DNA from: Lachnospiraceae bacterium
GTDB taxonomy: Bacteria > Bacillota > Clostridia > Lachnospirales > Lachnospiraceae
Length of the DNA stretch: 17,405 nt
Direction of reading: 5' to 3'
Assembly: GCA_020860745.1 (NCBI GenBank)
Contig: JAJBTR010000231.1
Span: forward strand, 1-17,405
In this document: piece by piece, positions 335 to 17,021 of the stretch
Layout of the letters: each line of letters starts with the position of its first letter
Position numbering within the stretch: the first letter of the stretch is position 1
The notes under the pieces: model-generated
Told to the model about the DNA's origin: nothing
Databases searched by the model: none
Seen by the model: the letters and a program-made list of their open reading frames with translations, nothing else
Position numbers and translations under genes: made by a program

Positions 335-649
335 CTATTCCGTCCTTTCATTTCTTAAAATATAATCAATCAGATAGTCGCCTTGAGAGTTTATACACGT
401 TCTCACATGCACTCCGGGAAAATTCGTGTTGAACGGTAGTAAATAAAAATGGTCAATCCAGCTTTTATCACTCCATTTACCATCGCCCAAATAGACGGAT
501 TTGATCCAGTACTTCCAGGTTGCTATGCTCGAATCAAACCCACAGTAAACAACCTCGCCATAGCCAAGAGTAAATCTTAGCTCATTCATAAATACCTCAG
601 CTTGAGCCATAGTCATCCAGTCGGGTATTACTATATATAGCTCTTTCAT
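335..649 (-). CDS. hypothetical protein, 104 residues
   Basis: The start is ATG at 649 (MKELYIVIPDWM), preceded by GGAGGGATGGC, and it overlaps the stop of the 22-residue gene upstream as TTATGA. The longer upstream reading is rejected because it duplicates the DNA of that small gene. The product is soluble, mixed alpha/beta, rich in aromatic residues (WKYWIKSVYLGDGKW, WIDHFYLLP), with no known motif. One copy of the dispersed heptamer falls near the 3' end, where it reads as D-Y-I-L. I do not recognise the family. The operon context makes it a real phage gene. Confidence 0.8.
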   Translation of the reverse strand: MKELYIVIPDWMTMAQAEVFMNELRFTLGYGEVVYCGFDSSIATWKYWIKSVYLGDGKWSDKSWIDHFYLLPFNTNFPGVHVRTCINSQGDYLIDYILRNERTE

Positions 650-714
650 AATGCCATCCCTCCAAAAAATATGCCAATCAACAAGCCGATAATAATACAA
701 ATTAAATAGCTCAT
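646..714 (-). CDS. 22-residue membrane microprotein
   Basis: A very short ORF (MSYLICIIIGLLIGIFFGGM then A-L-stop). A strong ribosome site, GGGAGGAGAAAGAGTA, precedes the ATG at 714. The gene overlaps the zinc-ribbon gene upstream (TAATG) and the 104-residue gene downstream (TTATGA), so its frame is fixed by coupling on both sides. Almost the whole peptide is one hydrophobic helix with a glycine-rich end, which predicts a minimal single-pass membrane peptide. The function is unknown; such peptides may modulate membrane complexes. It is too short for similarity searches, so support comes from the ribosome site and the exact nesting between neighbours. Confidence 0.6.
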   Translation of the reverse strand: MSYLICIIIGLLIGIFFGGMAL

Positions 715-869
715 TACTCTTTCTCCTCCCACTTCACAGGCTTATGTGAATTCACGTTTACACACTCCTCCAGACAAGCATCGCAAGGTTTCTCATTTTC
801 AGCCTGCTTAGCATATTTACAAGTCGGGCAATACGTGTGAAAATCTACTTCTTTATACTGCTGTTCCAT
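714..869 (-). CDS. small zinc-ribbon-like phage protein
   Basis: 51 residues starting at ATG 869 (MEQQYKEVDFHTYCPTCKYA), with AGAGGAATTAG upstream, and overlapping the 3' end of the 78-residue gene. Two cysteine pairs are visible: CPTC around residues 14-17, and C-D-A-C followed by L-E-E-C around residues 29-36. This is consistent with a four-cysteine zinc-binding fold plus an extra cysteine. The C-terminus N-S-H-K-P-V-K-W-E-E matches a small zinc-ribbon protein I remember as widespread in Firmicutes phages. Its function is not known to me. Roles in protein or nucleic-acid binding are guesses from the fold. Confidence 0.8.
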   Translation of the reverse strand: MEQQYKEVDFHTYCPTCKYAKQAENEKPCDACLEECVNVNSHKPVKWEEKE

Positions 870-1089
870 CTAATTCCTCCTCTAACACTTCCAATACTCG
901 AAAATAAAATTCGCCTTGACCAAAGGCATAAGAATCTACGTAATCAATTGGAAGAGCGCGTTTTACACATTTAGTGGACGCTAAATCATTGCCAATCCGT
1001 CTTAATTCGAAAACGAAATCCAGACCGAACCTGTAAAAATGAACATCGTATCCTTTCTTCATCAGTTTTTCAATTTTCTCCGCTAACAT
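853..1089 (-). CDS. hypothetical protein, 78 residues
   Basis: ATG at 1089 with AAGGAGG eight bases upstream. The product (MLAEKIEKLMKKGYDVHFYR...) is soluble, with a charged N-terminal helix, a central mixed segment and an acidic end (LEVLEEELDGTAV). It is the first minus-strand gene left of the plus-strand insertion at 1201-1506, and its last codons overlap the zinc-ribbon gene. No motif is recognised. I see no convincing minus-strand promoter upstream, so it may depend on read-through from further right or on a promoter I cannot identify. Confidence 0.75.
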   Translation of the reverse strand: MLAEKIEKLMKKGYDVHFYRFGLDFVFELRRIGNDLASTKCVKRALPIDYVDSYAFGQGEFYFRVLEVLEEELDGTAV

Positions 1090-1125
1090 CCAGAACCTCC
1101 TTAATCAGCATAATAAATTTCTATA
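1090..1125 (-). pseudogene. possible remnant: gene 3' end without a start codon
   Basis: Reading leftwards, an open frame ends with D-D-P-T-I-E-I-Y-Y-A-D and a stop just before the ribosome site of the 78-residue gene. Upstream it remains open as K-R-R-D-G-K-E-K but meets a TGA without any ATG, GTG or TTG. The C-terminal wording resembles phage protein ends I have seen, and the position is where a minus-strand gene would end. It may be what is left of a gene interrupted when the plus-strand gene at 1201 arrived. This is weak evidence. Confidence 0.2.
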
Positions 1126-1143
1126 GTAGGATCGTCTTTCTCC

Positions 1144-1193
1144 TTTCCATCTCTCCGCTTTCATGATATAATTTACAGAAAATACACGGAGGG
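1144..1193 (+). promoter_or_regulatory. SigA-like promoter and ribosome site of the plus-strand gene at 1201
   Basis: A TATAAT at 1167-1172 matches the -10 consensus. A weak -35-like TTTCCA lies 17 bases upstream at 1144-1149. The ribosome site GGAGGG (1188-1193) is seven bases before the ATG at 1201. The arrangement is standard for a Firmicutes vegetative promoter with a leader of about 20 bases. Confidence 0.5.
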
Positions 1194-1200
1194 TTTTGCT

Positions 1201-1506
1201 ATGAGCCTTACAAAAGAACAGCATGATATCTTTGTCAATTGGGTTGAAAAATATATTGTCCGTAGAAAATCTATCAGCCATAATATTGACACATCCGATA
1301 TCAGAGAGGCATTTATGAGCACATATAAACACGGCTTTTATCTCAATAATAATGATGTAAATGATATAATGTTCGAACTTGGATTCCGCGCTGCTAACTT
1401 TGCAAATGACCCATATTTGCATTTTAACATTTCGTCTCAATCCCGAGCTGTTCAAGAACTTCGTCGTATGTATATTGAACAGGCACGGTATCAGAAGTAT
1501 GAATAA
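1201..1506 (+). CDS. plus-strand 'moron-like' hypothetical protein
   Basis: 101 residues, read against the direction of the surrounding genes. ATG at 1201 follows GGAGGG by seven bases, and a TATAAT lies 29 bases upstream of the start. The product (MSLTKEQHDIFVNWVEKYIV...) looks soluble and mainly helical, with a basic stretch (IVRRKS) and a C-terminal arginine/tyrosine-rich helix (ELRRMYIEQARYQKYE). No family is recognised. Its last 83 bases overlap, tail to tail, the 3' end of the minus-strand P-loop gene, so both strands code there. A solo gene with its own promoter inside an opposite-strand operon is typical of phage morons. No intrinsic terminator is visible after it. Confidence 0.65.
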   Translation: MSLTKEQHDIFVNWVEKYIVRRKSISHNIDTSDIREAFMSTYKHGFYLNNNDVNDIMFELGFRAANFANDPYLHFNISSQSRAVQELRRMYIEQARYQKYE

Positions 1507-1741
1507 TCCATGCGTCTTCACCATCCTCAACCACAAAGGGATAACCGAGAGCTTTTAATATAACTTTTATAGTGGTTTTGCCGGAAGTCATTGGACCGGT
1601 CAAAACAATTATTCGCCTTTCCCGCATGTTAGTTATGAGGCGCCGGGTTTCCTCTTTTCCAATTAAACCCTCTATAAAGGTTTTGACTTCTTTCGGGATT
1701 TTCTTGTAGGTGGACTTTACGTATTTTTCATATGGGTTCAT
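1424..1741 (-). CDS. small P-loop NTPase-like protein
   Basis: 105 residues from ATG 1741 (MNPYEKYVKSTYKKIPKEV), with AAAGGAAA upstream. The longer frame further upstream is rejected because it runs through the plus-strand gene region and lacks a ribosome site. Around residues 49-56 is G-P-M-T-S-G-K-T-T, a Walker A motif, preceded by a beta strand (RRIIVLTGP) as in P-loop folds. A possible acidic second motif is VVEDGEDAW near residue 75. The protein is far shorter than a normal ATPase or kinase, so it may be a minimal nucleotide-binding protein or a reduced helicase/transport relative. One dispersed heptamer copy lies within it. The 3' end overlaps the plus-strand gene. Confidence 0.7.
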   Translation of the reverse strand: MNPYEKYVKSTYKKIPKEVKTFIEGLIGKEETRRLITNMRERRIIVLTGPMTSGKTTIKVILKALGYPFVVEDGEDAWIIHTSDTVPVQYTYDEVLEQLGIETKC

Positions 1742-1757
1742 ACAAATTTCCTTTCTC

Positions 1758-1786
1758 TCGACACCTCCCCACAAATATGATAAAAT
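1758..1786 (+). promoter_or_regulatory. SigA-like promoter of the plus-strand gene at 1821
   Basis: A -35-like TCGACA at 1758-1763 and a -10-like TAAAAT at 1781-1786 are separated by exactly 17 bases, each with one mismatch to consensus. The ribosome site GGGAGAAGGTG (1803-1813) and ATG at 1821 follow at suitable distances. Confidence 0.6.
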
Positions 1787-1820
1787 CGCTGTACCAAATA
1801 ATAGGGAGAAGGTGAAGATT

Positions 1821-2042: not shown

Positions 2043-2051
2043 CCTATTTAT

Positions 2052-2097
2052 AAAAACACCTGAGAAGATGCCGCAACTCATCCTCTTGGGTGTTTTT
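2052..2097. terminator. bidirectional terminator between convergent genes
   Basis: AAAAACACC at 2052-2060 pairs with GGTGTTTTT at 2089-2097, and the inner arms (AGAAGATG and CATCCTCT) extend the stem with a few mismatches around a short loop (CCGCAACT). The T-run on one side and the A-run on the other make it work in both directions. It serves the plus-strand gene ending at 2042 and the minus-strand gene ending at 2099. Confidence 0.85.
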
Positions 2098-2098
2098 A

Positions 2099-2656
2099 TC
2101 ATTGAGAAATATTGTACCGCTTATGAAGCTCTCCTAAAGGATCTTCAAGAGCAACTTTCTTAGCTGGGGTTCGAGTACCGTCTTTATTTCGTTTGGCCTT
2201 TTCCACAATTTCATACTCCGGCACATACTGGGACTGCAAGATAACACGAATATTTTGCAGTTCTTTTCTTATTTCCGTCAGCTCAGCCAGTTTTTTGCTT
2301 TCAATGTCTACAGGATGATTAACGGGTTTTACGTCCGCCCTAGGCTCTGTGACCTCTGTATAAGTTAGCAAACGCTTTCCAACAACATAACCCTGATACT
2401 CAGAACGATTCGATAGTAACCATGTTGAAATACCCCTCAGATGATTTCCAATCGAAAATCCATCAGCAATTTCATCTGGTACATCAAGAGATAAAACCAC
2501 TTTATTGTTGCATATCATCAGGTTGCGGAGTATAACATTGTGTCTCACTTCGAGATTCAGACGAGCCGATTGTACCCCCTTCCAAATATCATCAAATTTA
2601 TCAATAGTAGCTACAAGCGGACTTGTGAAATTAATCTGTACGTATTTTCTCACCAT
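2099..2656 (-). CDS. hypothetical protein, 185 residues, last gene of the replication operon
   Basis: Starts at ATG 2656, inside the end of the helicase gene (AAATGGTGA), so it is translationally coupled. The N-terminal ~100 residues look beta-rich (VRKYVQINFTSPLVATIDKF). A helical, possibly coiled-coil segment follows (SKKLAELTEIRKELQNIRV, about 120-140), and then a basic linker (KAKRNKDGTRTPAKK) and the end ...HKRYNISQ. No known motif is visible. Position directly after an SF2 helicase and before the terminator suggests an accessory role in DNA metabolism, which is inference only. Confidence 0.8.
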   Translation of the reverse strand: MVRKYVQINFTSPLVATIDKFDDIWKGVQSARLNLEVRHNVILRNLMICNNKVVLSLDVPDEIADGFSIGNHLRGISTWLLSNRSEYQGYVVGKRLLTYTEVTEPRADVKPVNHPVDIESKKLAELTEIRKELQNIRVILQSQYVPEYEIVEKAKRNKDGTRTPAKKVALEDPLGELHKRYNISQ

Positions 2657-3864
2657 TTCACATACTTCCCTTCATTAAAGTTTTTCTTTTCTTTCAGTGC
2701 ACGACTTATCGCCAGGTCAATACCGGACTTAGACTTCAAATGATAATAATACAAGTCTTTGAATGGGGTATTCAGCCTGTCAATACGTCCCGCGGCCTGC
2801 TGCATAATCTTGTACGAATAATTCTGAGAGTAGAATATAATCGTGTCAGTCAGTATGCAGTTCCATCCCTCAGCTCCGGCAGTATACTGTACAAGGTAAA
2901 TCCACTTTCTGTGCTCAGGAATCGGCTGATGCTTGTGACCGTTCCACTCAGCAATCTCCACACCTTCACCATAAGCCATATTCTTCAATATCTCAAGCTC
3001 ATAGTCAAAGTTGTAGAATATAATTGCCCTTGGATGCTTCTCCACCAGCTCAAGCAAAGCAATCTGTCTGCTTTCTGAGCTGTTCACAATCTTCCGCCAA
3101 ATGTAACAAAGTTCAGCAGCGTTAATAACCGGCTCGTCCGTATAAGGATTCCAGCGAGTCTTTGTGACTTGCTTATAAGCCTCTATATCGTACTTTACAA
3201 TGATATCCTCATGATGACTTGTCGTCTGCCTGTCGAAGTCCATATTGACTAAGACGTTTGCCCGCAAACGGATTAATCGGCCAGTATTTATATACCTATC
3301 AACTTTCGGATACTTAGCAAAGCGACTGTACACCACATGTTCACGATTGAACTCGGTACGGTTTTTATAGAAGCCATTTGCAATGAACACAGGAACATAA
3401 TCCATCCAGGTATCCCCAGGGGTAGCAGACAATAATATCCAGGAATTGCTTTTAGTAATCCTGAGGAACGACTTTACCCAAGCGCCGGATCCGACAACCC
3501 TCTGCTCATCAAAAATAAAGAATGCTCCGGTCACATCAGCATACTTCTTGATATTGTTCCATGAGTCCACCACAACCTTATTGGAATATAAGTTCTCCTC
3601 TTTGTGTGTAGAAAGAAGGAAGGGCGAAAGCTCACCCTCCCATTCTAACGTGTCTCGTTTCCGAGCAGTCGTGATGATGTACAAGTCTTTTGGCGGGTCT
3701 GACATCGGATAATACTCTTCCGTCTCCAGTCGCCCGCCCTCATGCAGATAGTAATACGCCAGAGCTGTTCTCGACTTACCAGACCCAACACCGCCACAAA
3801 GAATACAACCGTTCTTCATCTTTCGAATAGCGTCAAGTTGGTAACCATATAAATTAAGACTCAT
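2650..3864 (-). CDS. SF2 (SNF2/DEAD-like) phage helicase
   Basis: 404 residues from ATG 3864 (MSLNLYGYQLDAIRKMKNG), chosen because TGAGGAG sits just upstream. The alternative TTG start would lie within that site. Visible SF2 motifs are a Q-like N-terminus (YGYQLDAI), Walker A C-G-G-V-G-S-G-K-S near residues 24-32, motif II as F-D-E-Q (not DEAH), motif III L-S-A-T-P, and C-terminal motif VI Q-Q-A-A-G-R-I-D-R. Such proteins are DNA-dependent ATPases that translocate or remodel DNA, and are common in Firmicutes phage replication modules next to the polymerase. Three heptamer copies lie in this gene. Confidence in helicase superfamily is high; the exact task is unknown. Confidence 0.92.
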   Translation of the reverse strand: MSLNLYGYQLDAIRKMKNGCILCGGVGSGKSRTALAYYYLHEGGRLETEEYYPMSDPPKDLYIITTARKRDTLEWEGELSPFLLSTHKEENLYSNKVVVDSWNNIKKYADVTGAFFIFDEQRVVGSGAWVKSFLRITKSNSWILLSATPGDTWMDYVPVFIANGFYKNRTEFNREHVVYSRFAKYPKVDRYINTGRLIRLRANVLVNMDFDRQTTSHHEDIIVKYDIEAYKQVTKTRWNPYTDEPVINAAELCYIWRKIVNSSESRQIALLELVEKHPRAIIFYNFDYELEILKNMAYGEGVEIAEWNGHKHQPIPEHRKWIYLVQYTAGAEGWNCILTDTIIFYSQNYSYKIMQQAAGRIDRLNTPFKDLYYYHLKSKSGIDLAISRALKEKKNFNEGKYVKW

Positions 3865-3872
3865 GTTTCTCC

Positions 3873-4289
3873 TCAATATTCACTCGGAAACAGAATCGTA
3901 GTAACGCTGCTGTCCCATTCCGTAATAATCCAGATTTTCTCTCCGTCGGGATTTTTCTCTGGGGTTTTCTTGAATGCGAAAGGTTCTTCGCTCTTTGGCG
4001 GCATTCCCATTTTTCCGTCGCGCAATGGAAATAAGAATGTGGTGTATTCTGTCAAATAGTTCTTTATGTCTTCCTCATCGTAAATATAAACTGCCAAAAT
4101 ACGCTCCTTATGTGTTAAAGCATAGTCGTTATGCCTAGCATCTTCTTCGCATGTATCGCCCCAGTCACCATGTCGATAACGCGCAAATGAAGTCTCTACA
4201 AACGTGGCGAAGTCGTTATCGCTCTCCATACGTTCAGCTATCCTAGGAGTTACCACGATTTTACCTTTCTCAACGAATTTTACGCTCAT
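3873..4289 (-). CDS. conserved mobile-element hypothetical protein (GDWGD type)
   Basis: 138 residues from ATG 4289, coupled to the upstream gene (AAATGAGCG overlap). It contains the string RYRHGDWGDTCEEDARHND (about 38-56) and, near the end, K-I-W-I-I-T-E-W-D-S-S-V-T-T-I-L-F-P-S-E-Y. I remember this pattern (GDWG...ED...ND...IWIITE.D.S.TT.L.P.EY) from short proteins on Firmicutes plasmids and integrative elements, where they are usually unnamed. An acidic middle (YDEEDIKN) is present. The function is unknown to me. One heptamer copy falls in the gene. Confidence 0.8.
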   Translation of the reverse strand: MSVKFVEKGKIVVTPRIAERMESDNDFATFVETSFARYRHGDWGDTCEEDARHNDYALTHKERILAVYIYDEEDIKNYLTEYTTFLFPLRDGKMGMPPKSEEPFAFKKTPEKNPDGEKIWIITEWDSSVTTILFPSEY

Positions 4290-4615
4290 TTAGTTACCTC
4301 CTTTTCCGGCCAGGTATAAACAAAACCATCCTCAATCACAGCGAAATATAATGGCCCATCAGCTTTGGCTTTAAGGTCTGCTTTCGGTCCGTAGTTAACA
4401 AATACTGCACCAATCTCATCTACTGACCAATGACATACTTCATCAGCATAATCGAAAAGTCGGCATATCACTTCTGTTGTCACTCGAATTTTTCGGCAAT
4501 CATACTTAGTGCTCGGCTGTACTGTGTAACCAGCTTCCTTCGCGACTTTTTCATAAAAATCAGGAATACTGCAATAGCAGCTCTCCCAAGTTAACTCAAT
4601 ATAGTTTTTCAGCAT
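4286..4615 (-). CDS. hypothetical protein, 109 residues
   Basis: Starts at ATG 4615 (MLKNYIELTWESCYCSIPD) with AAAGGAG upstream and ends in an ATGA-type overlap with the next gene. Soluble, with four cysteines scattered through the N-terminal half but no clear zinc motif, and an aromatic C-terminal half (GPLYFAVIEDGFVYTWPEK). No family is recognised. It lies between the SSB-side genes and the helicase in a continuous co-oriented run, so it probably belongs to the same transcript. One heptamer copy lies inside it at 4345. Confidence 0.78.
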   Translation of the reverse strand: MLKNYIELTWESCYCSIPDFYEKVAKEAGYTVQPSTKYDCRKIRVTTEVICRLFDYADEVCHWSVDEIGAVFVNYGPKADLKAKADGPLYFAVIEDGFVYTWPEKEVTK

Positions 4616-4650
4616 AGTATCTCCTTTCGGCTTTGGGTTTTGAAATATAA

Positions 4651-4968
4651 TTACCAGTCCCGTTCCATATTGTACGGGGTTCCTACTGTTCCGACTGAAC
4701 CAGAGCTATCTGTAGACTTAAAGAACTCTCCAGGCAAAGGATACATATAGCGAAACATCAGGTAATTCGCAGCATCCATCAAATGCTCTGTATTATGGTC
4801 TTTCTTGAACGCTTCGATGCACAGCTCAGCAGTTTTAAGTGCATCTACTCTGCCCTCACCAAAGTTCTTCTTTGCCGGTCCGTACTTATAATACGAAGTA
4901 ATTACACGGTTTCTTCTCCCGGCGTCAAAATCCTTTGAATACTCTTTATCCATATCATTTAATTCCAT
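4651..4968 (-). CDS. conserved phage hypothetical protein, 105 residues
   Basis: ATG at 4968 overlaps the last codons of the SSB gene (the end CCATGGAATTAA), with GGAGGAAATGCC serving as ribosome site. The pattern [12 protein letters not shown] near residue 30, then helical ..[16 protein letters not shown] (about 63-78) and the end [21 protein letters not shown], matches a small protein I remember from many Firmicutes phage replication modules. The function is not known to me. A heptamer copy lies directly after the stop codon (4644-4650). Confidence 0.82.
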
Positions 4969-5444
4969 GGCATTTCCTCCGGTCCTTCCATCTCGGCATA
5001 CTTCTCAGCGAACTGGTCTTCCTCGATCGTAACGTACATAGACTTCAAATAAGCCTTAACGCCGGTCTTACCATTTACTTCCCAGTTGTACGGTCTGATG
5101 ATAAGGTCAACGTTCCTGATTTCTGCATAGTCCAGAGCAGAAATAGTTTCTTCATCCAACTGAGTCTTATTCTTTCTGGTAATCATGAATACTTTCGGCG
5201 GAATATAATCAAAAGAGACGGCCACCTGTAAATAGTGACGCGCCTCCTCTTCTTCATCACGTGGAGCCAAAACGCGAATGTTCCAGCCATCTTCCGACAG
5301 GGCGTTTGCCTGTTCCGGATCATCGATAATCACGCAGAAGTTCCGCTTTCCTTCGCGATTGTACTGACCCTCCTTTCCCGCAAAATTTCTGAATATAATT
5401 CTCGCATTTTCAATAACAATGTTGTCTGTTGCTTTGTATGACAT
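4959..5444 (-). CDS. phage ssDNA-binding protein with acidic PWN tail
   Basis: 161 residues from ATG 5444, with AAGGAGGAC upstream. The core ([19 protein letters not shown] ... [20 protein letters not shown]) matches phage single-stranded DNA-binding proteins of a type I remember, probably an OB fold. The C-terminus is flexible and acidic and ends E-G-P-E-E-M-P-W-N. Bacterial SSB and T7 gp2.5 use an acidic tip ending in an aromatic residue to recruit partners, and this tail looks like an analogue. The polymerase encoded just upstream ends E-E-E-L-P-W-N. Two heptamer copies fall in the gene. Likely role: coating ssDNA and organising the fork. Confidence 0.8.
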
Positions 5445-5460
5445 TAGTTGTCCTCCTTTT

Positions 5461-5658: not shown

Positions 5659-5680
5659 ACACATCTCCTTAAAAATATAA

Positions 5681-9729: not shown

Positions 9730-9939
9730 TTAATTCTCTTCATTGCTCGAATCCCGCAATTTCTGCCGTACCTTCTTAAGTTCCCGATCTGTCGTCATCG
9801 TATGAACGCTCAGCAAGAACATCAGAATAATCAGATTCCGGTTGATCTTCTTCTGGCGCCTAAGAACTTTTACTACGCTATTAAGCGCCTCTTCTGTATT
9901 TCCAAGATTCTTTAAAATATAACCTATTGTCTTATCCAT
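9730..9939 (-). CDS. small single-pass membrane protein
   Basis: 69 residues from ATG 9939 (MDKTIGYILKNLGNTEEAL), with AAAGGAG five to six bases upstream; the longer frame upstream is a shadow of the preceding gene. A basic segment (KVLRRQKKINR) is followed by one hydrophobic helix (NLIILMFLLSVHTM, about 35-48) and a charged C-terminal helix (DRELKKVRQKLRDSSNEEN) with coiled-coil character. It is predicted to be a tail-out or tail-in membrane protein. It sits immediately upstream of the replisome gene, so it could tether replication to the membrane, but that is speculation. A heptamer copy reads as G-Y-I-L near its start. Confidence 0.75.
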   Translation of the reverse strand: MDKTIGYILKNLGNTEEALNSVVKVLRRQKKINRNLIILMFLLSVHTMTTDRELKKVRQKLRDSSNEEN

Positions 9940-9950: not shown

Positions 9951-10505
9951 TCACAATACCGTATTGAGGTACCAACACATTTGACACCAAATTTCCACTT
10001 GCCTCAGATCATCCTTGCAGTCTTCGATGGTGAATAACCCGCCCTTGCCATCACGGTCATACTCGCGATCTAAGAATCTTGTAAGAATATAATTCGCCAC
10101 ATCCTCATCAAAATTCTCGTCGTTCATATAATCGAGACCCAGGCTGAGAATCATGTTCCAAAACCAGAACGCCGTACGATCCCCAATATCCGGGTCGTGC
10201 GTAATGTGCGTTTCACACCGATCAGCAAGGGCAATCATCATCTCTAACACGCTACAAGGATGGTCATCCAAACAAACATTAATCTCATCTGCGTTATAAC
10301 TGTTTTCATATCCAAAACGATATCGGAGCTCCACTCCGTCCATAGCACGATTTTCGTCCATATCAGTCGCTATCAGATAATAAAAGTCCGTATCGTAAAG
10401 AAACTCCAATAGCGCATGATAAGATGATTCTTCAAAATGCTCTCTGTCTATGATAAAGTCACAGAGCCATTTGAAATATTTCTTTTTACTAACCACCTTG
10501 CTCAT
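9951..10505 (-). CDS. conserved gut-phage hypothetical protein, 184 residues
   Basis: ATG at 10505 with CGGAGG upstream. Signature segments are D-M-D-E-N-R-A-M-D-G-V-E-L-R-Y-R-F near residue 50, CSVLEMMIALADRCE near 84-98, DPDIGDRTAFWFWNMILSLG near 103-122, and a C-terminal R-F-L-D-R-E-Y-D...GGLFTIEDC..D-L-R-Q-V-E-I-W. I recall close patterns in many human-gut phage genomes, always unnamed. It is helical and acidic with tryptophan-rich contacts. No catalytic motif is evident. One heptamer copy (N-Y-I-L) lies inside it. I am confident that this is a real, conserved phage gene; the function is unknown. Confidence 0.88.
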   Translation of the reverse strand: MSKVVSKKKYFKWLCDFIIDREHFEESSYHALLEFLYDTDFYYLIATDMDENRAMDGVELRYRFGYENSYNADEINVCLDDHPCSVLEMMIALADRCETHITHDPDIGDRTAFWFWNMILSLGLDYMNDENFDEDVANYILTRFLDREYDRDGKGGLFTIEDCKDDLRQVEIWCQMCWYLNTVL

Positions 10506-10517: not shown

Positions 10518-11075
10518 TTAATGCGGTCTCTTCTTCATCATGTCTGCATACGTCCCGAAATCTTTCAGAATTTCGTAATCGCAGCTCTTGGCGTCATTCC
10601 GAACAAAGACAGAATCGTCCTCATACTCTCCGAAATGAGTCAATGATTCGAAACCGACAATTTCTTCAATATCATCCACAACCTCATCGCATTCGTCGGC
10701 CAGAACTCCATCAGAGTAATATGTAAGGCTGATTGTCTCGTAGTTCTCAAATTCACCGAATTCTTCTGGCCGAATTACATAAGGTTTATCCACGTTTTTA
10801 TTTTTCTCCTTTATATATCCTTTTGCATAACCGCTGTTGGCGATAACATCTTTATAGCTATTCATTTCTTCTTTGGCGGGTTTGACCGGCGTCTCCGATT
10901 CTTCGTCGTTCTCCAGGCGCTCTTTGTATTTTTCATTATACTGAGCCACAGTATCGTCAAGTTCATCGACCAACTCCCGAATCGTCTGCTCGTACTTTTT
11001 CTTCGCCACAAAATACCCAGCTAAAGTGCCCACTGCTGCACCAAGAATTATTGAAATATAATTAGATTTACTCAT
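10518..11075 (-). CDS. membrane-anchored acidic phage protein
   Basis: 185 residues from ATG 11075 (MSKSNYISIILGAAVGTLAG), overlapping the previous stop (GATGAGTAA). The alternative GTG start four codons upstream has no ribosome site at a usable distance. Residues 6-22 form a glycine/alanine membrane anchor. A coiled-coil-like segment follows (YEQTIRELVDELDDTV), then a linker, then a conserved domain starting P-Y-V-I-R-P-E-E-F-G-E-F with SLTYYSDGVLADE and HFGEYEDDSVFVRND. I remember that last domain from many Firmicutes phage hypotheticals. The function is unknown. The membrane anchor and acidic domain suggest a surface or membrane scaffold role. Confidence 0.85.
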   Translation of the reverse strand: MSKSNYISIILGAAVGTLAGYFVAKKKYEQTIRELVDELDDTVAQYNEKYKERLENDEESETPVKPAKEEMNSYKDVIANSGYAKGYIKEKNKNVDKPYVIRPEEFGEFENYETISLTYYSDGVLADECDEVVDDIEEIVGFESLTHFGEYEDDSVFVRNDAKSCDYEILKDFGTYADMMKKRPH

Positions 11076-11268
11076 CTCTTCTTGCACCTTTCAAATTTAT
11101 TACGGTATTATCATTATCTCCGGTAATCGTTATGACCGTTAATGCCAATCCTCCAAAAAGTAAAGAGGCACTTAACAAGATTCCTCCTGCGATATGCCTC
11201 TTTCTCTTTGAATCCAGAATATAATCTAAGCTGGCAATGACATTTTCAATAGCTTCAAAGCCTTCCAT
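11068..11268 (-). CDS. small membrane protein, 66 residues
   Basis: I chose ATG 11268 (MEGFEAIENVIASLDYIL), with GAGGTGATGGT upstream. A longer frame would overlap the 30-residue gene and lacks a ribosome site. A helical N-terminus is followed by a basic patch (DSKRKRH) and a hydrophobic helix (GILLSASLLFGGLALTVITI, about 32-51), then a short polar tail. One heptamer copy (D-Y-I-L) lies near residue 16. It is coupled to the downstream gene. The family is not recognised. Confidence 0.72.
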   Translation of the reverse strand: MEGFEAIENVIASLDYILDSKRKRHIAGGILLSASLLFGGLALTVITITGDNDNTVINLKGARRDE

Positions 11269-11272
11269 ACCA

Positions 11273-11365: not shown

Positions 11366-11379
11366 TTTTATCCCTCCTT

Positions 11380-11880
11380 TCAGGCATAACTTGAAAAATA
11401 ATGATTCCCAATACGAAACATAGGCTCTCCATACTTGCCATAGTTACCGGCTGTGAAGAATATAACATCTTTATCGGTCCGGTTCTCAGCCTCCTCCCTT
11501 ACCAGGAAACGGATATGATCTGTGACTTCACAACGGTCAATCCGCCCATTCCACATTGACGAGAACTGGTTTTTCTGGTATATCACCTCGTGTACCGTAT
11601 TGGGAAAATGCTCTGAGTCGACTCGGTTAAGAATCGTATCAATAACATACCTCTTCCCAAGATCAGACTCACCCTCTGCTTCCGCCATCGTAACCAGGGC
11701 AATCAGATCAACTTCTTCATTAGTCAATCCACCCTGTGGTAGCTCCACCTTTCCCTGGATCACATCCGTCGGCTTATCTTCAGCCTTTGCGTCAACAGTA
11801 CTTGCTCCGACTACAGCAAAAGCAAAAATCGCTACAATAGCTATCAGAGCAGACATTCCAACTTTAAAATCGTTATCCAT
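11380..11880 (-). CDS. membrane-anchored SleB-type cell-wall hydrolase
   Basis: 166 residues from ATG 11880, with TAGGAGGATCTT upstream. Residues 8-31 are an uncleaved-looking signal/anchor (GMSALIAIVAIFAFAVVGAS). From about residue 55 the sequence matches the SleB / Hydrolase_2 (PF07486) family: E-E-V-D-L-I-A-L-V-T-M-A-E-A-E-G-E, then G-K-R-Y-V-I-D-T-I-L-N-R-V and QKNQFSSMWNG, with a glutamate in MAEAEGE as likely catalytic residue. These enzymes cleave the glycan backbone of peptidoglycan. In a phage it may act in lysis, in entry or in building an envelope-spanning complex. No holin can be assigned, although many small membrane proteins surround it. Confidence 0.88.
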   Translation of the reverse strand: MDNDFKVGMSALIAIVAIFAFAVVGASTVDAKAEDKPTDVIQGKVELPQGGLTNEEVDLIALVTMAEAEGESDLGKRYVIDTILNRVDSEHFPNTVHEVIYQKNQFSSMWNGRIDRCEVTDHIRFLVREEAENRTDKDVIFFTAGNYGKYGEPMFRIGNHYFSSYA

Positions 11881-11984
11881 AAGATCCTCCTAAGAATATA
11901 ATAGACTACCCCTGACGTGATACAGCCAAGGATAGTCATATTGGTTTTGATATGAGTTTCCTGTCCCGATACTGTCGAGACCAT
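11844..11984 (-). CDS. possible small membrane protein overlapping the hydrolase start
   Basis: In the 108 bases between two genes an ORF opens at ATG 11984 (M-V-S-T-V-S-G-Q-E-T-H-I-K-T-N) and continues into a hydrophobic helix (MTILGCITSGVVYYILRRIL) before ending 37 bases inside the hydrolase gene. The upstream GTGAAGGG is close to this ATG, and a second ATG at 11939 is possible. A heptamer copy reads as Y-Y-I-L. Support is the hydrophobic profile and otherwise unused space; opposing evidence is the poor ribosome-site spacing. Confidence 0.35.
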   Translation of the reverse strand: MVSTVSGQETHIKTNMTILGCITSGVVYYILRRILWITILKLECLL

Positions 11985-11988
11985 CCCT

Positions 11989-12933
11989 TCACATCAGTTC
12001 CCAGATATTTCCGTCCACATTGAAATCCAGGAGGATTGTATGCTCTTTTCCCTTCTCATAATCCATGTAATAGATGTCGTTATTGCGATATAGGCCAAAG
12101 TCAATGTAATTGTCACCAACCGGATTCTTCTCATCGTATACCCAACCAACTATCTGTCCTTCTTTTGTTTCGGAGAATCCGAGGCATTTATATACCTCAT
12201 TCAGGAACACTCTGCCTTTTGCCACAAGTAAATCATTTACATACCGCTCCTGCGCTTTGATGAACATGAGGTTGTATTCCGGAGTCGTCTCCCAATTTGG
12301 ATTAATTTCTCCGGCGTCATTATACTGTTCAAAGAGTCGAGCATAACCGCTGACATCCTTGCTGGAAATCGTGTGAATATCTTTCTTGACTTTCTTTTTC
12401 TTACCGGTCTCTTCGTCAATCTCCTGCTCCTCAATCTTCTCCGCTTTGAGATTGTAACGCAGCTCACGATCTACGGTGTCTCCAAATCTCTCAACCACTC
12501 TTCCTCGATATTCTTTGAAAGCAGTGTCGATGGTAGTATAAGCCGCAGCCAGCGCAAGATTTCTCTTTCTGAGAATATGATTGGATGTCAACAGGCTCGT
12601 TACCCCCAGCACACAGAGGGCTACTGACGGAGCATACAGCTTCACAAATTTAACGCCGGTCTGAACATAAGTGGTTGTGAGGTCTTTCTTCGCATCTTCC
12701 TGAGAATATACCTCTGTTGTTTTTTCTTCTTCACATTTATGAATTTTCTCGACGGTATCCTTGTGCTCATCCAGAATTGTGTCAACTTTCAGAGTTGCTT
12801 TACAAGCCATAATTGTTCCAGCCGCCGTACAAACAACACCAGCCACAGTAAGAATCTCCGGGCTGTGTTTTTTCATCTTAAAGCTCGTCTTACCGAGAGC
12901 TTTTGTTATTGCGCTTAACATTTTCGTTTTCAT
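11989..12933 (-). CDS. DUF6353-like two-helix membrane protein, copy 1 (largest)
   Basis: 314 residues from ATG 12933 (MKTKMLSAITKALGKTSF), with AAGGAGG upstream and a heptamer copy (12937-12943) between that site and the start. It has the layout I associate with DUF6353: a basic N-terminus with K-K-H-S-P-E-I-L-T, a first helix (about 27-46) ending in A-C-K-A-T-L-K, a charged loop, a second helix (about 100-118), then R-N-L-A-L-A-A-A-Y-T...FKEYR and a large C-terminal domain ending Y-Y-M-D-Y-E...ILLDF. Two related proteins lie upstream in this window. The role is unknown; paired helices and small soluble domains suggest a membrane complex. This copy has an extra lysine-rich insert near residues 170-190. 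Confidence 0.85.
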   Translation of the reverse strand: MKTKMLSAITKALGKTSFKMKKHSPEILTVAGVVCTAAGTIMACKATLKVDTILDEHKDTVEKIHKCEEEKTTEVYSQEDAKKDLTTTYVQTGVKFVKLYAPSVALCVLGVTSLLTSNHILRKRNLALAAAYTTIDTAFKEYRGRVVERFGDTVDRELRYNLKAEKIEEQEIDEETGKKKKVKKDIHTISSKDVSGYARLFEQYNDAGEINPNWETTPEYNLMFIKAQERYVNDLLVAKGRVFLNEVYKCLGFSETKEGQIVGWVYDEKNPVGDNYIDFGLYRNNDIYYMDYEKGKEHTILLDFNVDGNIWELM

Positions 12934-12949
12934 TGAAATATAATCCTCC

Positions 12950-13543
12950 TTAATCGATAGGTTTCGCCTTAGGCATTTTAATCATGTACTCGTTGTTTCT
13001 GAGACGGACGATGCTCGCGCTGCGAATATCATCCCATCCATATTTATTGTCCGTATAGTTGTGCTCCAGACCAGCCAGGTCGTATAAATCAGCAACACTC
13101 ACCACACCATATACGTCAATAGCCTCGTCCAAACCATCCAGCACCTCCACTGCATCTGCACGAGTCTCTAATATAACGTCATCATAGTCATAGCCAACTC
13201 TGCGTCTGCTTGAACGCTCTTCTCGTCTGTCCCGGCCATCGTAATACTTCTGATAAGAGACTCTTGAAGCGCCGGTCCTTTTCCTGGATGAGCCACTGTC
13301 CCCAACCCCAAGTAAAGCCTTAACTGTATCCAGCAAAATATCTTTTACCGCCGGTACAAATACATCCTCAAAAATATAAGACTTTACGCTCTCTGTATCC
13401 TCTGGCACGAAGACCTCTGCCAGCTTTCTCATCTCGCCTTTTTTCTTGGTCTTTGCCTTACCAGATATAGCCTTATTTATCTTTTTCTCCGGTAGTTTCT
13501 TTTCTTCTTTTGATTTATGTGAATTTGGTGCATAATTATCCAT
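12950..13543 (-). CDS. conserved phage hypothetical protein, 197 residues
   Basis: ATG at 13543 (MDNYAPNSHKSKEEKKLPEK) with TAGGAGGTAAGC upstream. A lysine-rich N-terminus is followed by SVKSYIFEDVFVPAVKDILL (about 53-72), an arginine/serine-rich low-complexity linker (DRREERSSRRR), and a conserved C-terminal domain with D-D-V-I-L-E-T-R-A-D-A-E-V-like helix, YGVVSVADLYDLAGL and NYTDNKYGWDDIR, ending ...M-P-K-A-K-P-I-D. I remember the N- and C-terminal patterns from many Firmicutes gut phages, without function. It directly follows a terminator and has no conserved upstream box, so it may depend on read-through. Two heptamer copies are present. Confidence 0.88.
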   Translation of the reverse strand: MDNYAPNSHKSKEEKKLPEKKINKAISGKAKTKKKGEMRKLAEVFVPEDTESVKSYIFEDVFVPAVKDILLDTVKALLGVGDSGSSRKRTGASRVSYQKYYDGRDRREERSSRRRVGYDYDDVILETRADAVEVLDGLDEAIDVYGVVSVADLYDLAGLEHNYTDNKYGWDDIRSASIVRLRNNEYMIKMPKAKPID

Positions 13544-13561
13544 GCTTACCTCCTAGAAAAT

Positions 13562-13600
13562 GGAAAAGAGAAAGCACCTTGTTACAGGTACTCTCTCTTT
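13562..13600 (-). terminator. intrinsic terminator after the 92-residue membrane gene
   Basis: On the minus strand GAGAGAGTACCT pairs, with two G-U pairs, to AGGTGCTTTCTC around the loop GTAACA. TTTTCC and then CATTTTC follow. The stem spans 13568-13597. It lies between the gene ending at 13611 and the ribosome site of the gene starting at 13543, so read-through must occur if no other promoter serves the latter. Confidence 0.7.
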
Positions 13601-13610
13601 CCGGTAATAA

Positions 13611-13889
13611 CTACTCGCCTTCTTCCTCTTCGACTTCCTCATAGTCAGCGTCTTCATAGAACTCCTCATCGTAGTCGTCCTCGGTGTAGCTGGCCTTGAA
13701 ATTCTTCCAAGCTGCTCTCCGCCGTTTCACTTTCTTGATCTTCGGCGCAATGATATACTTGGCTGCCAAAATGCCGCCAGTAATAACTGCTCCGCCAATC
13801 GCCACGTTTCTCAGCGTATTGCCTCCAGAAGTCTCCTCAACCTCTTCTACCTCGTTAACATCGTTGATTTCCATGATTTCGTTTTCCAT
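13611..13889 (-). CDS. single-pass membrane protein with acidic ends
   Basis: 92 residues, ATG 13889, with AAAGGAGAAAAATC upstream. An acidic N-terminus (MENEIMEINDVNEVEEVEE) is followed by a glycine/alanine-rich helix (NVAIGGAVITGGILAAKYII, about 28-47), a basic patch (KIKKVKRRRAAWKNFK) and a strongly acidic tail of glutamates and aspartates. By the positive-inside rule the basic patch and tail should be cytoplasmic. It has its own conserved upstream box (13929-13957) and is followed by a terminator, so it is a cassette gene. The family is not recognised. Confidence 0.8.
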   Translation of the reverse strand: MENEIMEINDVNEVEEVEETSGGNTLRNVAIGGAVITGGILAAKYIIAPKIKKVKRRRAAWKNFKASYTEDDYDEEFYEDADYEEVEEEEGE

Positions 13890-13928
13890 GATTTTTCTCC
13901 TTTCAAGATATAATTAAAGTTGTATTAC

Positions 13929-13957
13929 TTTCATTAAAGCACTTGTAAATTTCGCGA
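13929..13957 (-). promoter_or_regulatory. conserved upstream box 1
   Basis: Minus strand: TCGCGAAATTTACA, five bases, then TTTAATGAAAG. It belongs to a family of six full boxes (plus one cut by the window edge) that share CGCRAAATTTACA, a constant five-base gap and TATAATGAAAG. Here a leader of about 35 bases, containing the near-heptamer TTATATC, separates the box from the ribosome site. Likely a promoter with a -10-like element but no SigA -35. Confidence 0.6.
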
Positions 13958-13959
13958 CC

Positions 13960-14730
13960 TCAGTAGAGATTTCGGAAGTCGTATCGCGGTTCACAGGTGA
14001 AATCTAATACAAGACTCGGTGTCCCATCCTCGGTAAGCTGACTGCTAAAGTCAATCTCGATCAAACCTGTATCAATATTCCATCCAAGGTCTTCTCCGGT
14101 CTTAACCGATGGCACCCCAAGCTCGTAGTAGAACTCATTGACTGAAATATAATTCTCAACAAGCAACCGTCGATTCAGCTCGTTGACGGACTTCTTAATC
14201 TTGTCAATATCAGACTTAAAATATCGTCCGAACACGGCGTCATAGCACAAAGTATCGCCTTTATTAGTCAGGATAACCGTATTATTCGATACAGGATTCT
14301 TCTCAATTTTATCCTTGGCGATAGCATCCTTGACTGCTTTTTCTTTCTTTTCACCAATCGTCTCAACTGCTTTTTCCTTGTACTCTCTCAAAGCCGATTC
14401 GGATAAAGTGTAAGCCGTAGCGAGTGCCGCATTTCTTCTGTGGTGTACTTTACTGGCTCCAATAATGCATACGGCTCCGCCGACACCTGTTATTGCTGCC
14501 GGAATATAAGGTTTCCAGGCTACTTTGACAGTCTCGGCTACACCAAGCTTGTCCTCCGGCTCGTCCTTAGCTTCTTCAATAAGCTGTAAAGCCTTTGGAG
14601 TGGCTTTAACGGACAATATAACAGCCCAGGTCATCCCACCAATTCCTATAGCTGTGAGAATCTCCGGACTATGCTTTCTTGCACCAGACTTGATTGATTT
14701 CACAAAGCCCGGCAGAGTGAATTTACTCAT
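13960..14730 (-). CDS. DUF6353-like two-helix membrane protein, copy 2
   Basis: 256 residues from ATG 14730. I prefer it to the ATG six bases upstream because AAAGGAGG abuts the earlier one. Shared marks are A-R-K-H-S-P-E-I-L-T at the start, a first helix (AIGIGGMTWAVILSV) followed by K-A-T-P-K-A, a second helix (IPAAITGVGGAVCIIGA), then H-R-R-N-A-A-L-A-T-A-Y-T...YKEK. Its C-terminal domain contains VNEFYYELGVPSV and ends with two strands, IEIDF and LVLDF. It lies immediately after a terminator without a conserved box of its own. Four heptamer copies lie in or just upstream of it. Confidence 0.85.
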   Translation of the reverse strand: MSKFTLPGFVKSIKSGARKHSPEILTAIGIGGMTWAVILSVKATPKALQLIEEAKDEPEDKLGVAETVKVAWKPYIPAAITGVGGAVCIIGASKVHHRRNAALATAYTLSESALREYKEKAVETIGEKKEKAVKDAIAKDKIEKNPVSNNTVILTNKGDTLCYDAVFGRYFKSDIDKIKKSVNELNRRLLVENYISVNEFYYELGVPSVKTGEDLGWNIDTGLIEIDFSSQLTEDGTPSLVLDFTCEPRYDFRNLY

Positions 14731-14749
14731 TTTCATCCTCCTTTCAAAA

Positions 14750-14780
14750 ATATAAAGAGAAAGAGCCCTTGTTAGGACTC
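14750..14780 (-). terminator. intrinsic terminator, repeat family GAGTCC/GGGCTC
   Basis: Minus strand: GAGTCC, TAACAA loop, GGGCTC, then TTTCTCTTTATATTTTT. The stop codon TAA of the small upstream gene forms part of the loop. Near-identical copies end the genes at 16078, 16333 and the one upstream of 17050. Confidence 0.8.
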
Positions 14781-14933
14781 CTCCTCATCTCGCTCAGCAA
14801 GCTGCCTTGAAACTTCCTCTTCCACTGCTGCTTCCATCTGCTTACTCTCCACTAAGTTTTGTGCTAACATAAGCCCTCCACTCAGTAGCATCAAGCCGAT
14901 TCCCGACAGTGTAAATATGTTTTTTCATTTCAT
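14772..14933 (-). pseudogene. small membrane protein, apparently frame-disrupted near its start
   Basis: A good ribosome site (AAAGGAGGTAGCTT) precedes ATG 14933, but that frame reads M-K-stop. A second ATG at 14928 reads M-K-K-H-I-Y and stops after 28 residues. The frame open down to the terminator reads I-F-T-L-S-G-I-G-L-M-L-L-S-G-G, a good anchor helix, then a glutamate-rich tail ending ...E-R-D-E-E-E-S. Removing one base from the run AAAAAAC would join ATG 14928 to it as M-K-N/K-I-F-T-L-S-G, a natural signal-anchor start. It has its own upstream box and terminator. Choices: a one-base mutation, a sequencing error, slippage on the A-run, or initiation at ATG 14891. Confidence 0.55.
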
Positions 14934-14941
14934 AAGCTACC

Positions 14942-14973
14942 TCCTTTCACAATAGCAGTTGTATTTTTTGCGT
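14942..14973 (-). promoter_or_regulatory. conserved upstream box 2
   Basis: Minus strand: ACGCAAAAAATACA, five bases, TATTGTGAAAGGAGG. The spacing is identical to the other boxes and the -10-like part is the weakest. The ribosome site AAAGGAGG is directly attached, leaving almost no room for a leader if transcription starts at the usual distance from the -10. Confidence 0.55.
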
Positions 14974-14981
14974 AATCATTC

Positions 14982-15698
14982 CTATTCCCATTCTCTTAAA
15001 TAATCGTCATCCGGAGCGAAGACAAAATCAATCACATAAATATCTCTACCACCATCGTCCTGTGTAATTTTGCGATGCTCAAAGTCAATCCAACTATATC
15101 CATATGTCATAGACCAGCCAACTTCTACACCATAGTCAGTAGGCGGTAACCCTATGAACTGATAAAACTCATTCAATGGAGAATACCCTCGCATAACAAA
15201 ATTTCTGTTCAGATGATACTCAGCATCCATAATCTCCCGCTCATAGGCTTCAAATGTTTCTCCGGAATATTCGTCATACCAAAGAAGTTTCTGATCTGGT
15301 GTGTCTACTCCTATTTGGTGATAATCGCAACACCCTCGGACTGCCATAGCTTCGATAACTTCCTGATCGGCCTCCTCACCATGTAAGTCAACCAGAGTCT
15401 TGCGGTATTGTCTGAACGTCTTATCCAGCATAGCGTAAGCGCTTATCAGAGAGGCCTGCTGTCTCTTATTGAGAGCGTTTGCGCCGAGGATACAGGCGAT
15501 CGTAGCGACTCCAAATGATATCGGCAAAATATAACACGGAGCTGCGGTCAGGATTTTCTCTTTCTCGCTCATATCATCGTCAATTAATTCCAAAGCTTTG
15601 ACTGTAGCTCTGGCTGACGTTACCACTGTCACAACTACCCCTGCTACCGCTATGACAGAGAGTATGGTTGGTGAGTGACGTTTTAAAAATGGTTTCAT
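14982..15698 (-). CDS. DUF6353-like two-helix membrane protein, copy 3 (smallest)
   Basis: 238 residues, ATG 15698 (MKPFLKRHSPTILSVIAVAG), with GAAAGGAGAACGCG upstream. The paralog signature is K-R-H-S-P-T-I-L-S, first helix, A-R-A-T-V-K-A-L, second helix (ILPISFGVATIACILGANAL), then K-R-Q-Q-A-S-L-I-S-A-Y-A...FRQYRK. C-terminally it has H-L-N-R-N-F-V-M-R-G-Y-S-P-L-N-E-F-Y and two closing strands, WIDF and YVIDF. It is divergent from the plus-strand gene at 15781, whose perfect promoter begins 17 bases beyond this start. Its own promoter is not evident. One heptamer copy is inside. Confidence 0.85.
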   Translation of the reverse strand: MKPFLKRHSPTILSVIAVAGVVVTVVTSARATVKALELIDDDMSEKEKILTAAPCYILPISFGVATIACILGANALNKRQQASLISAYAMLDKTFRQYRKTLVDLHGEEADQEVIEAMAVRGCCDYHQIGVDTPDQKLLWYDEYSGETFEAYEREIMDAEYHLNRNFVMRGYSPLNEFYQFIGLPPTDYGVEVGWSMTYGYSWIDFEHRKITQDDGGRDIYVIDFVFAPDDDYLREWE

Positions 15699-15714
15699 CG
15701 CGTTCTCCTTTCTC

Positions 15715-15743
15715 TTGACATGGTTAATGTTGGTAAATATAAT
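15715..15743 (+). promoter_or_regulatory. perfect-consensus SigA promoter, plus strand
   Basis: TTGACA at 15715-15720, a 17-base spacer, and TATAAT at 15738-15743. A ribosome site (GGAAAGGGGTG, 15765-15775) and ATG 15781 follow. It is the only full-consensus vegetative promoter in the window. Its -10 overlaps a heptamer copy (15736-15742), which may be coincidence here. Confidence 0.85.
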
Positions 15744-17020: not shown

Positions 17021-17021
17021 G

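Follow-up and report, generated by a model that had tools for sequence, protein, structure and literature searches.

The 17,405-nucleotide contig JAJBTR010000231.1 of a Lachnospiraceae bacterium (assembly GCA_020860745.1), called the window below, carries a heptamer that is used in one orientation only: a direct count gives 38 copies of AATATAA on the plus strand and none of TTATATT. All 30 accepted coding sequences (CDSs), which together make up 88.5% of its length, lie on the minus strand, so the coding-strand form of the word is TTATATT; automatic gene calling also proposed two short plus-strand open reading frames (ORFs). Judged by its predicted PolB-helicase polymerase, the window is part of a phage or prophage of the FP_oengus/1706/ReqiPoco6 type, since the relatives of that polymerase belong to such phages. 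The observation is real, general, and reflects selection at the nucleic-acid level beyond codons. We tentatively take the common core of the word, BATATTY ([CGT]ATATT[CT]), to be a short polar double-stranded-DNA signal of the early/middle transcription unit, read as a loading or initiation array by an RNA polymerase (RNAP); we offer this as plausible rather than probable.

The word in the window

Low-order Markov models expect 2.3-6.5 coding-strand copies of TTATATT (2.5 at order 0, 5.9 at order 2, 6.5 at order 3). Orders 4 and 5 expect 18.6 and 32.2, and these already hold the word's own hexamers. Within CDSs 32 copies were observed versus 8.1 ± 2.5 in 1000 within-gene synonymous shuffles, the highest of which reached 17; all three reading frames are used (16, 12 and 4 copies), and six of the 38 are not fully within a CDS. 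A sequence-only reading of the window had hand-counted about 38:0 and held that codon use could not explain both the frames and the gaps. The count is exact, and the shuffles, which did not reproduce it, bear out the second point. The reverse word is found 0 times in CDSs versus 2.5 expected, so that its lack within the window alone is mildly unusual and weak evidence by itself.

Ten copies inside the polymerase gene, and copies in gaps at 4644, 5674, 12937 and 14749, lie where that reading had placed them. Its nine-base extension RAATATAAT fits in part, 21 of the 38 copies matching and the others deviating, and its span of 359..15742 takes in 36 copies and misses two (16886 and 16967) past its end. 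The generalized core occurs 53:11 on the coding strand of the window, where the strongest polar 6-mer other than ribosome sites has a z of only 6.9.

A bias of composition, codons or amino acids might be suspected, the word being AT-rich, the genes strand-biased and a Markov model of order 5 absorbing most of the copies. We rejected this explanation and hold it to be very improbable, because it is contradicted by the synonymous shuffles, by a 5.6-fold intergenic enrichment, by the enrichment in phages of 52-61% G+C content (GC) and by the conservation of sites.

The word in a phage family

Related loci, 80 viral and 63 from bacterial genomes, were oriented by the polymerase gene (L and G numbers below are our handles for loci and records). 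TTATATT outnumbers its complement 1968:165 in the viral loci and 1598:122 in the genome loci; 75 of the 80 viral and 62 of the 63 genome loci have twice as many forward as backward copies, or more; the polarity is thus common to most of the family. The shared core on the early-gene strand is BATATTY. A preceding A shows no consistent excess, and the A-preceded core is found 0:0 times in the right half of Gordonia phage OhMyWard. The core is at least twofold polar in 71 of 80 viral and 56 of 63 genome loci; seven of the nine viral loci that fall short have a GC of 35% or less, and the seven such genome loci lie at 31-42%. Of 59 loci submitted to synonymous shuffles, 49 passed the cut (3044 copies versus 1050 expected).

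Polarity stands out most among the higher-GC phages and is present in phages of Gordonia, Rhodococcus, Microbacterium and Streptomyces. BATATTY counts are 119:1 over the whole genome of OhMyWard (approximately 52% GC; 94:1 in the right half, 25:0 in the left), 71:0 in 20 kb of ReqiPoco6, 65:1 in 43 kb of Camille and 24:0 in Scap1 (61% GC). The strongest polar 6-mer other than ribosome sites reaches z values of 16-22 in OhMyWard, ReqiPoco6 and Camille, at most 5.8 in stretches of the outsiders SPbeta, lambda and P23-45, and at most 7.1 in Lactococcus phage 1706 and the Arthrobacter phages Mudcat and Ingrid; BATATTY is absent from the last three. The motif logo is self-contained at 7-9 bp, with one weakly preferred base ahead of the core.

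The word also has dialects. TGATATTT is preferred in loci L071, L073, L075 and L076, TGATATT in the first 50 kb of FP_oengus (39:2), ACATATT/CATATTT in L032 and L040, and CCAAAAT in L079 (43:1).

Distribution along phage genomes

In eight phages 205.7 kb of early/middle DNA (for Camille including the structural genes) holds 530 BATATTY sites; 31.8 kb of the VRR-Nuc/Cas4/RNAP cluster holds 25. As far as the RNAP cluster FP_oengus has 2.16 sites per kb, and its late genes (26.7 kb) count 15:8; for the late genes of D_HF4_2 (15.8 kb) the count is 1:0. OhMyWard carries approximately 10 sites per 3 kb between 33 and 57 kb; its structural genes have fewer, and the stretches 0-6 kb and 58-61 kb hardly any. 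The structural genes of Camille and Scap1 also carry the core. The cluster sites listed for OhMyWard and Tanis sit in the VRR-Nuc and Cas4 genes; in the OhMyWard cluster they persist in the HNH and Cas4 genes, the RNAP gene alone being free. Site density is higher in the polymerase gene than in the RNAP gene in 33 of 37 phages, and counts over 29 viral records are 381:60 and 91:57, respectively. In stretches of four annotated phages, 229 of 278 sites fall within CDSs.

The orientation does not flip in leftward genes. Thirteen leftward integrase genes are not enriched in the sense orientation (8 sites versus 8.3 expected) and hold 62 in the genome orientation, where synonymous shuffles expect 43.7. 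Four Pfam-confirmed leftward recombinase genes count 26:3 in the genome direction, as do leftward ORFs at large (n=25) at 54:12; only the recombinase genes were relied upon, because most of 15 leftward ORFs checked were largely covered by plus-strand ORFs. The word, then, does not follow the direction of the gene, nor is it a mark on all transcripts; it belongs to the main rightward unit, mostly its early/middle part.

This restriction to a module weakens genome-wide signals of replication or segregation. Sites for lagging-strand priming, or Chi-like sites for the phage Cas4/RecB-like exonuclease and helicase, would agree with the lack of a flip, including the 26:3 of the recombinase genes, with the even spacing, and with the nuclease, helicase and polymerase that the same phages encode. 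However, shuffles explain most of the genome-direction bias over the 13 leftward genes, and long stretches are nearly empty (late genes of D_HF4_2 and FP_oengus, the ends and RNAP gene of OhMyWard), which counts against a replication signal since these must be replicated too. We regard this explanation as quite improbable.

Backward copies and intergenic sites

Within the genes of 47 motif-bearing loci, backward copies number 459 versus 791 expected with the codons of forward sites held fixed, and are below expectation in 46 of the 47. Four other AT-rich control classes lie at 0.78-1.17 of expectation; in nine motif-poor loci the count is 352 versus 315. These 56 loci come from the 59 shuffled; L016, of CAAAAT type, was left out, as were L047 and L053, both of which had backward copies below expectation. 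Outside genes, forward sites in 50 loci number 529 versus 94.9 expected (5.6-fold) and backward sites 82 versus 104.4; the corresponding numbers in ten motif-poor loci are 52 versus 29.5 and 64 versus 47.8.

The avoidance of backward copies favours recognition of double-stranded DNA, since an element acting in RNA alone would leave them neutral. It thus bears on the possibility that a phage protein binds or cuts early mRNA at UUAUAUU-like words, for protection, decay or processing. The sense orientation in early/middle genes, the scarcity in some late regions, the even cover of the transcript and a length of 7-8 nucleotides, which would suit an RNA-binding protein, all agree with such a role, but backward copies are not in the mRNA and are avoided nonetheless, and the leftward integrase genes lack a sense-strand excess. 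We judge an RNA-level site unlikely.

Conservation and spacing

Sites are kept between Gordonia phages. Exact identity of the site 7-mer, compared with AT-rich control 7-mers, is 0.80 versus 0.46 for Fazel, 0.64 versus 0.34 for Untouchable, 0.54 versus 0.31 for Tanis and 0.45 versus 0.29 for Secretariat. Against ReqiPoco6 it is 0.22 versus 0.16, with 6 of 24 sites coinciding, and at A/T positions the sites are conserved no better than other sequence (0.68 versus 0.70). Free drift at the sites, which would have spoken against selection, is thus not seen between Gordonia phages, while positions between OhMyWard and ReqiPoco6 turn over to background. Taken with the 71:0 of ReqiPoco6, this means that sites are fixed over short evolutionary range and replaced over long range, their number and polarity persisting.

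Close pairs are missing. In six Gordonia and Rhodococcus stretches none of 374 gaps between sites is shorter than 50 bp (approximately 58 expected) and seven are shorter than 80 bp (approximately 88 expected), gaps of 80-300 bp being typical; these six, being related, do not count as independent, and controls show part of the deficit of the shortest gaps too. OhMyWard and ReqiPoco6 together have two gaps of 12-80 bp versus 30.5 expected, and 47 other 5-mers give a median ratio of 1.02, the lowest two being parts of the motif and the next-lowest ratio 0.57. In some loci, L049, L073, Camille and ReqiPoco6 included, gaps as a whole vary no less than they would at random. Hard steric exclusion was rejected: an estimated chance background of 0.34 per kb predicts only about four close pairs in two of the six stretches, so redundancy suffices and a footprint is not needed.

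A candidate reader

Phages of the family encode a protein of approximately 900 residues, phrog_4291, found in 42 of 50 polymerase records. In seven of the other eight the contig stops within 7 kb downstream of the polymerase gene; G040 continues for 12 kb. The window and its assembly give no match to this protein, the contig stopping approximately 5.7 kb past the polymerase gene. The motif ADFDGD is invariant in the alignments, and the predicted model (mean pLDDT 79.9, pTM 0.66) matches QDE-1, RDR2 and the phage RNAPs P74 gp62 and P32 gp64. On this model, phrog_4291 has both the DxDxD-type catalytic loop and the fold of a predicted two-barrel (QDE-1/YonO-like) RNAP. A C-terminal helix-turn-helix (HTH) domain resembles sigma region 4; an N-terminal resemblance to lambda CI is not significant (E 0.036). 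The ReqiPoco6 record labels its 1706 homologue a structural protein, and the RNAP may therefore be carried in the virion.

The early motif of phage phiKZ contains TATATT. In the portions of the literature consulted, the virion RNAPs of jumbo phages use AT-rich early promoters of roughly 10 bases (PMC7598289), and the virion RNAP of P23-45 an AT-rich motif (PMC10770324). These observations together make the phage RNAP our first candidate for the reader of the word.

Annotation of this protein varies. The phrog_4291 RNAP is present in 250 phage records; among the 60 of them that were listed its names are hypothetical (as in many of these records, or else HTH protein), HTH DNA-binding protein, transcription factor D5 and RNA-dependent RNA polymerase, and saliva contig89 (L167) has it as a tail fiber protein.

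Interpretation

The crowding of sites in early/middle DNA, their thinning in the RNAP gene and in some late regions, and the lack of a sense-strand excess in integrase genes argue for a double-stranded-DNA signal of one transcription unit. We propose that the reader of the word would be part of the phage-encoded transcription machinery, the likeliest candidate being the conserved single-chain two-barrel RNAP with its added HTH domain. The sites would serve for initiation or loading (relay), short and arrayed so densely that the enzyme could load anywhere within the early region. Antisense transcription would arise from backward copies, which would be purged, and the RNAP gene and late genes would fall into another transcription class.

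Several findings weigh against the proposed array. The strongest objection is that Mudcat, Ingrid and 1706 encode the RNAP and do not have the word; records G014, G029, G032 and G039 (L039, L063, L070 and L079) likewise have the RNAP with little or no BATATTY polarity. Not every RNAP-bearing phage, then, carries the motif or a variant of it, L079 having CCAAAAT instead. The RNAP with GC-rich promoters in the consulted portion of the P23-45 work is of the gp64 type, which the phrog_4291 model resembles (PMC10770324). Site dialect is clustered on both trees, and that of the RNAP accounts for it no better than that of the polymerase (12 versus 11 changes). No gene cluster is present in all 12 motif-bearing sets and absent from the 4 motif-less ones, in a comparison where several sets on both sides are partial genomes with automatically called genes. 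D_HF4_2 is an exception that shows no drop at the RNAP cluster (1.77 versus 2.10 sites per kb), and over 37 phages the RNAP gene is still 2.4-fold above synonymous expectation (polymerase gene, 3.6-fold). Most copies lie inside genes rather than upstream of genes or operons. Promoter placement was rejected: there is a peak 15-30 bases upstream of start codons, but a letter-reversed control peaks to a similar fold, so the AT-rich spacer accounts for it; no second element at a fixed distance, and no -35 partner, stood out in five logos. The missing close pairs are explained equally well by redundancy, with one site per approximately 100 bp, as by a footprint.

PolB is also seen in 25 of 36 RNAP records, the other 11 being pieces of 10-36 kb, some with the motif; since RNAP-only pieces occur with and without it, RNAP and PolB cannot be separated as determinants.

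A related, more doubtful form of the proposal is a new class of genome signal, a coverage code: one transcription class would bear a one-way 7-mer at intervals of 100-300 bp, at which the phage polymerase or a factor bound to it, perhaps delivered by the virion, would load again and again along the early region, perhaps also drawing DNA into the cell; backward copies would be purged. Its dialects would differ from phage to phage (TTATATT, TGATATTT, CATATT, CCAAAATG).

Alternatively, the sites may stop or pause transcription in one direction, a bound phage protein halting or slowing RNAP in early/middle genes and silencing them at lysogeny or at the late switch. Their concentration in those genes, their thinness in the RNAP gene and the avoidance of backward copies suit this, and the one-way relation to transcription recalls the stoperators of mycobacteriophages, where reversal abolishes function in the part of the work consulted (PMC9283540). 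Against it, the sites are 7-8 bp rather than 13, mainly intragenic and several times denser than the 20-30 stoperators of a genome, and no candidate repressor segregates with the motif. OhMyWard lacks an annotated integrase or repressor, so lysogenic silencing is unlikely as a general role. We consider a stop or pause function unlikely, if a little less so than the RNA-level site. Some probability is also left for a role other than all of these. Among the meanings offered by the sequence-only reading, the RNA-only and the genome-wide replication or segregation ones are therefore weakened, and stoperator-like action keeps some probability, though the anatomy differs.

Genes of the window and other observations

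The window polymerase (1343 residues) matches phrog_4210 over residues 1-1321 with 1989.5 bits. By this protein FP_oengus, which infects Faecalibacterium, comes closest among named phages (58.8% identity over 99%), followed by phages of Gordonia, Arthrobacter, Microbacterium and Streptomyces and Lactococcus phage 1706; Rhodococcus phage ReqiPoco6 has it too. The 63 bacterial-genome loci that encode relatives are mainly from Clostridia, Lachnospiraceae being the most frequent name. The early half of FP_oengus holds counterparts of the window helicase, the single-stranded DNA (ssDNA)-annealing protein and the three DUF6353 genes, paralogues which in the window are packed into 3.7 kb and of which FP_oengus also has three. 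Imperfect repeats of 75, 35 and 26 bases, with AAAGAGCCCTTGTTAGGACTC as one example, occur among small genes at 13922-17058.

Coordinates of genes and of TTATATT copies in the window
Feature	Position	Strand	Basis
DNA polymerase, PolB region behind DUF5906/SF3-type helicase region, 10 copies	5681..9712	-	phrog_4210, PF19263
Phage ssDNA-binding/annealing protein gene	4959..5444	-	phrog_4787, PF24083
DNA helicase gene, start codon chosen by analyst	2650..3861	-	phrog_62
Stretch with three DUF6353 genes (11989-12933, 13960-14736, 14982-15698)	11989..15698	-	PF19880
Copy 1	359..365	-	word count
Copy 2	1557..1563	-	word count
Copy 3, helicase gene	2834..2840	-	word count
Copy 4, helicase gene	3017..3023	-	word count
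Copy 5, helicase gene	3585..3591	-	word count
Copy 6	4083..4089	-	word count
Copy 7	4345..4351	-	word count
Copy 8, gap past stop	4644..4650	-	word count + CDS map
Copy 9, annealing protein gene	5202..5208	-	word count
Copy 10, annealing protein gene	5392..5398	-	word count
Copy 11, gap past polymerase stop	5674..5680	-	word count + CDS map
Copy 12, polymerase	6163..6169	-	word count
Copy 13, polymerase	6242..6248	-	word count
Copy 14, polymerase	6314..6320	-	word count
Copy 15, polymerase	7059..7065	-	word count
Copy 16, polymerase	7611..7617	-	word count
Copy 17, polymerase	8069..8075	-	word count
Copy 18, polymerase	8441..8447	-	word count
Copy 19, polymerase	8690..8696	-	word count
Copy 20, polymerase	9262..9268	-	word count
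Copy 21, polymerase	9369..9375	-	word count
Copy 22	9916..9922	-	word count
Copy 23	10086..10092	-	word count
Copy 24	11055..11061	-	word count
Copy 25	11218..11224	-	word count
Copy 26, cell wall hydrolase gene	11459..11465	-	word count
Copy 27, gap ahead of ribosome site	11895..11901	-	word count + CDS map
Copy 28, ribosome site/ATG interval	12937..12943	-	word count + CDS map
Copy 29	13170..13176	-	word count
Copy 30	13373..13379	-	word count
Copy 31, DUF6353 gene	14146..14152	-	word count
Copy 32, DUF6353 gene	14503..14509	-	word count
Copy 33, DUF6353 gene	14615..14621	-	word count
Copy 34, ahead of ribosome site	14749..14755	-	word count + CDS map
Copy 35, DUF6353 gene	15528..15534	-	word count
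Copy 36, outside CDS	15736..15742	-	word count + CDS map
Copy 37	16886..16892	-	word count
Copy 38	16967..16973	-	word count

Other words are also unevenly used in the relatives. A second polar word, HCAAAATG, is found in the late genes of FP_oengus (L089, 39-50 kb) and D_HF4_2; the loci in which this kind of word was noted also include L168 at 0-15 kb, L125-L127 and L151-L153. In record G003 CAAAATG is polar genome-wide (56:1 in 5 kb bins), with TTATATT almost limited to one 10 kb block; G039 has CCAAAAT instead. TTATGGA is polar in L155 (record G006, 20-40 kb) at 23:0 in 20 kb, densest at 25-35 kb. TATAATG, perhaps a host-type -10 box, is polar in the right half of OhMyWard (L163, 10:0), the early part of D_HF4_2 (L168, 7:0) and Ingrid (L176, 10:1). 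Among palindromes, GGATCC occurs 42 times in the right half of OhMyWard versus 10.6 expected from trinucleotides, and TCGCGAA/TTCGCGA words, possibly operator sites, 14 times in the whole of L054 and 12-13 times in L149.

An AT-rich gap ahead of the OhMyWard RNAP cluster (L163, 26074-26405) has repeated TGTCAAATC, GTTACCAAATC and TACGTATTA words and is possibly an origin or operator region. Beside the same cluster, at 26.2-26.9 kb, lie four of the eight best plus-strand sigma-like matches in OhMyWard; host promoters at the cluster were nevertheless rejected, equally good minus-strand matches occurring elsewhere, the HNH and Cas4 genes of the cluster keeping their sites with the RNAP gene alone free, and other phages being less clear.

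Comparison with known systems

A literature search over titles and the openings of abstracts found no description of the word. The word opens a way, through sequence, to an uncharacterised phage RNAP family, and it shows that synonymous sites of phage early genes can hold a second, strand-specific code. Template choice by single-chain two-barrel RNAPs becomes directly testable in laboratory phages such as OhMyWard, and the family of bacterial viruses that bears the word is widespread and little studied.

Chi and KOPS are short polar words, dispersed through genes in one orientation, host-specific and read by the host RecBCD/AddAB or FtsK. Unlike them, the phage word goes with a phage family whose hosts belong to different phyla, and it gathers in a single gene module; no genome-wide polar skew is seen, the late regions of FP_oengus and D_HF4_2 being nearly empty. 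The DNA uptake sequences of Neisseria and Haemophilus are dispersed, evenly spaced and intragenic; they occur in both orientations and are not of phages. The labels stoperator, Chi and plain promoter do not fit.

The early promoters of two-barrel phage RNAPs (jumbo-phage virion RNAPs, P23-45 gp96) share with our system a short AT-rich motif and the fold class of the polymerase (PMC7598289, PMC10770324, in the portions consulted). These promoters stand upstream of transcription starts, whereas the phage word saturates coding sequence without promoter placement. YonO of SPbeta is likewise a single-chain two-barrel RNAP for one class of phage genes, with no promoter known in 2017 according to the consulted part of that report (PMC5467207). 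It serves late genes, however, and no polar word of this kind appears in the parts of SPbeta examined.

Stoperators of Cluster A mycobacteriophages (L5, TipsytheTRex) and of Gordonia phage KatherineG are, in the consulted portions of two accounts, 13 bp long, number approximately 20-30 per genome, lie in promoters and short intergenic gaps, are bound by the immunity repressor and are non-functional in the wrong orientation (PMC9283540, PMC5559632). The phage word differs in being 7-8 bp (7-9 bp in the logo), in its 38 copies in 17 kb and 119 in OhMyWard, in lying mostly within genes (32 of 38 in the window, 229 of 278 in the four annotated phages) and in its presence in a phage with no annotated repressor or integrase. 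Both are nevertheless short, asymmetric sites, spread through the genome and oriented with transcription (PMC9283540, PMC5559632), as seen here in the 38:0 of the window and the 119:1 of OhMyWard.

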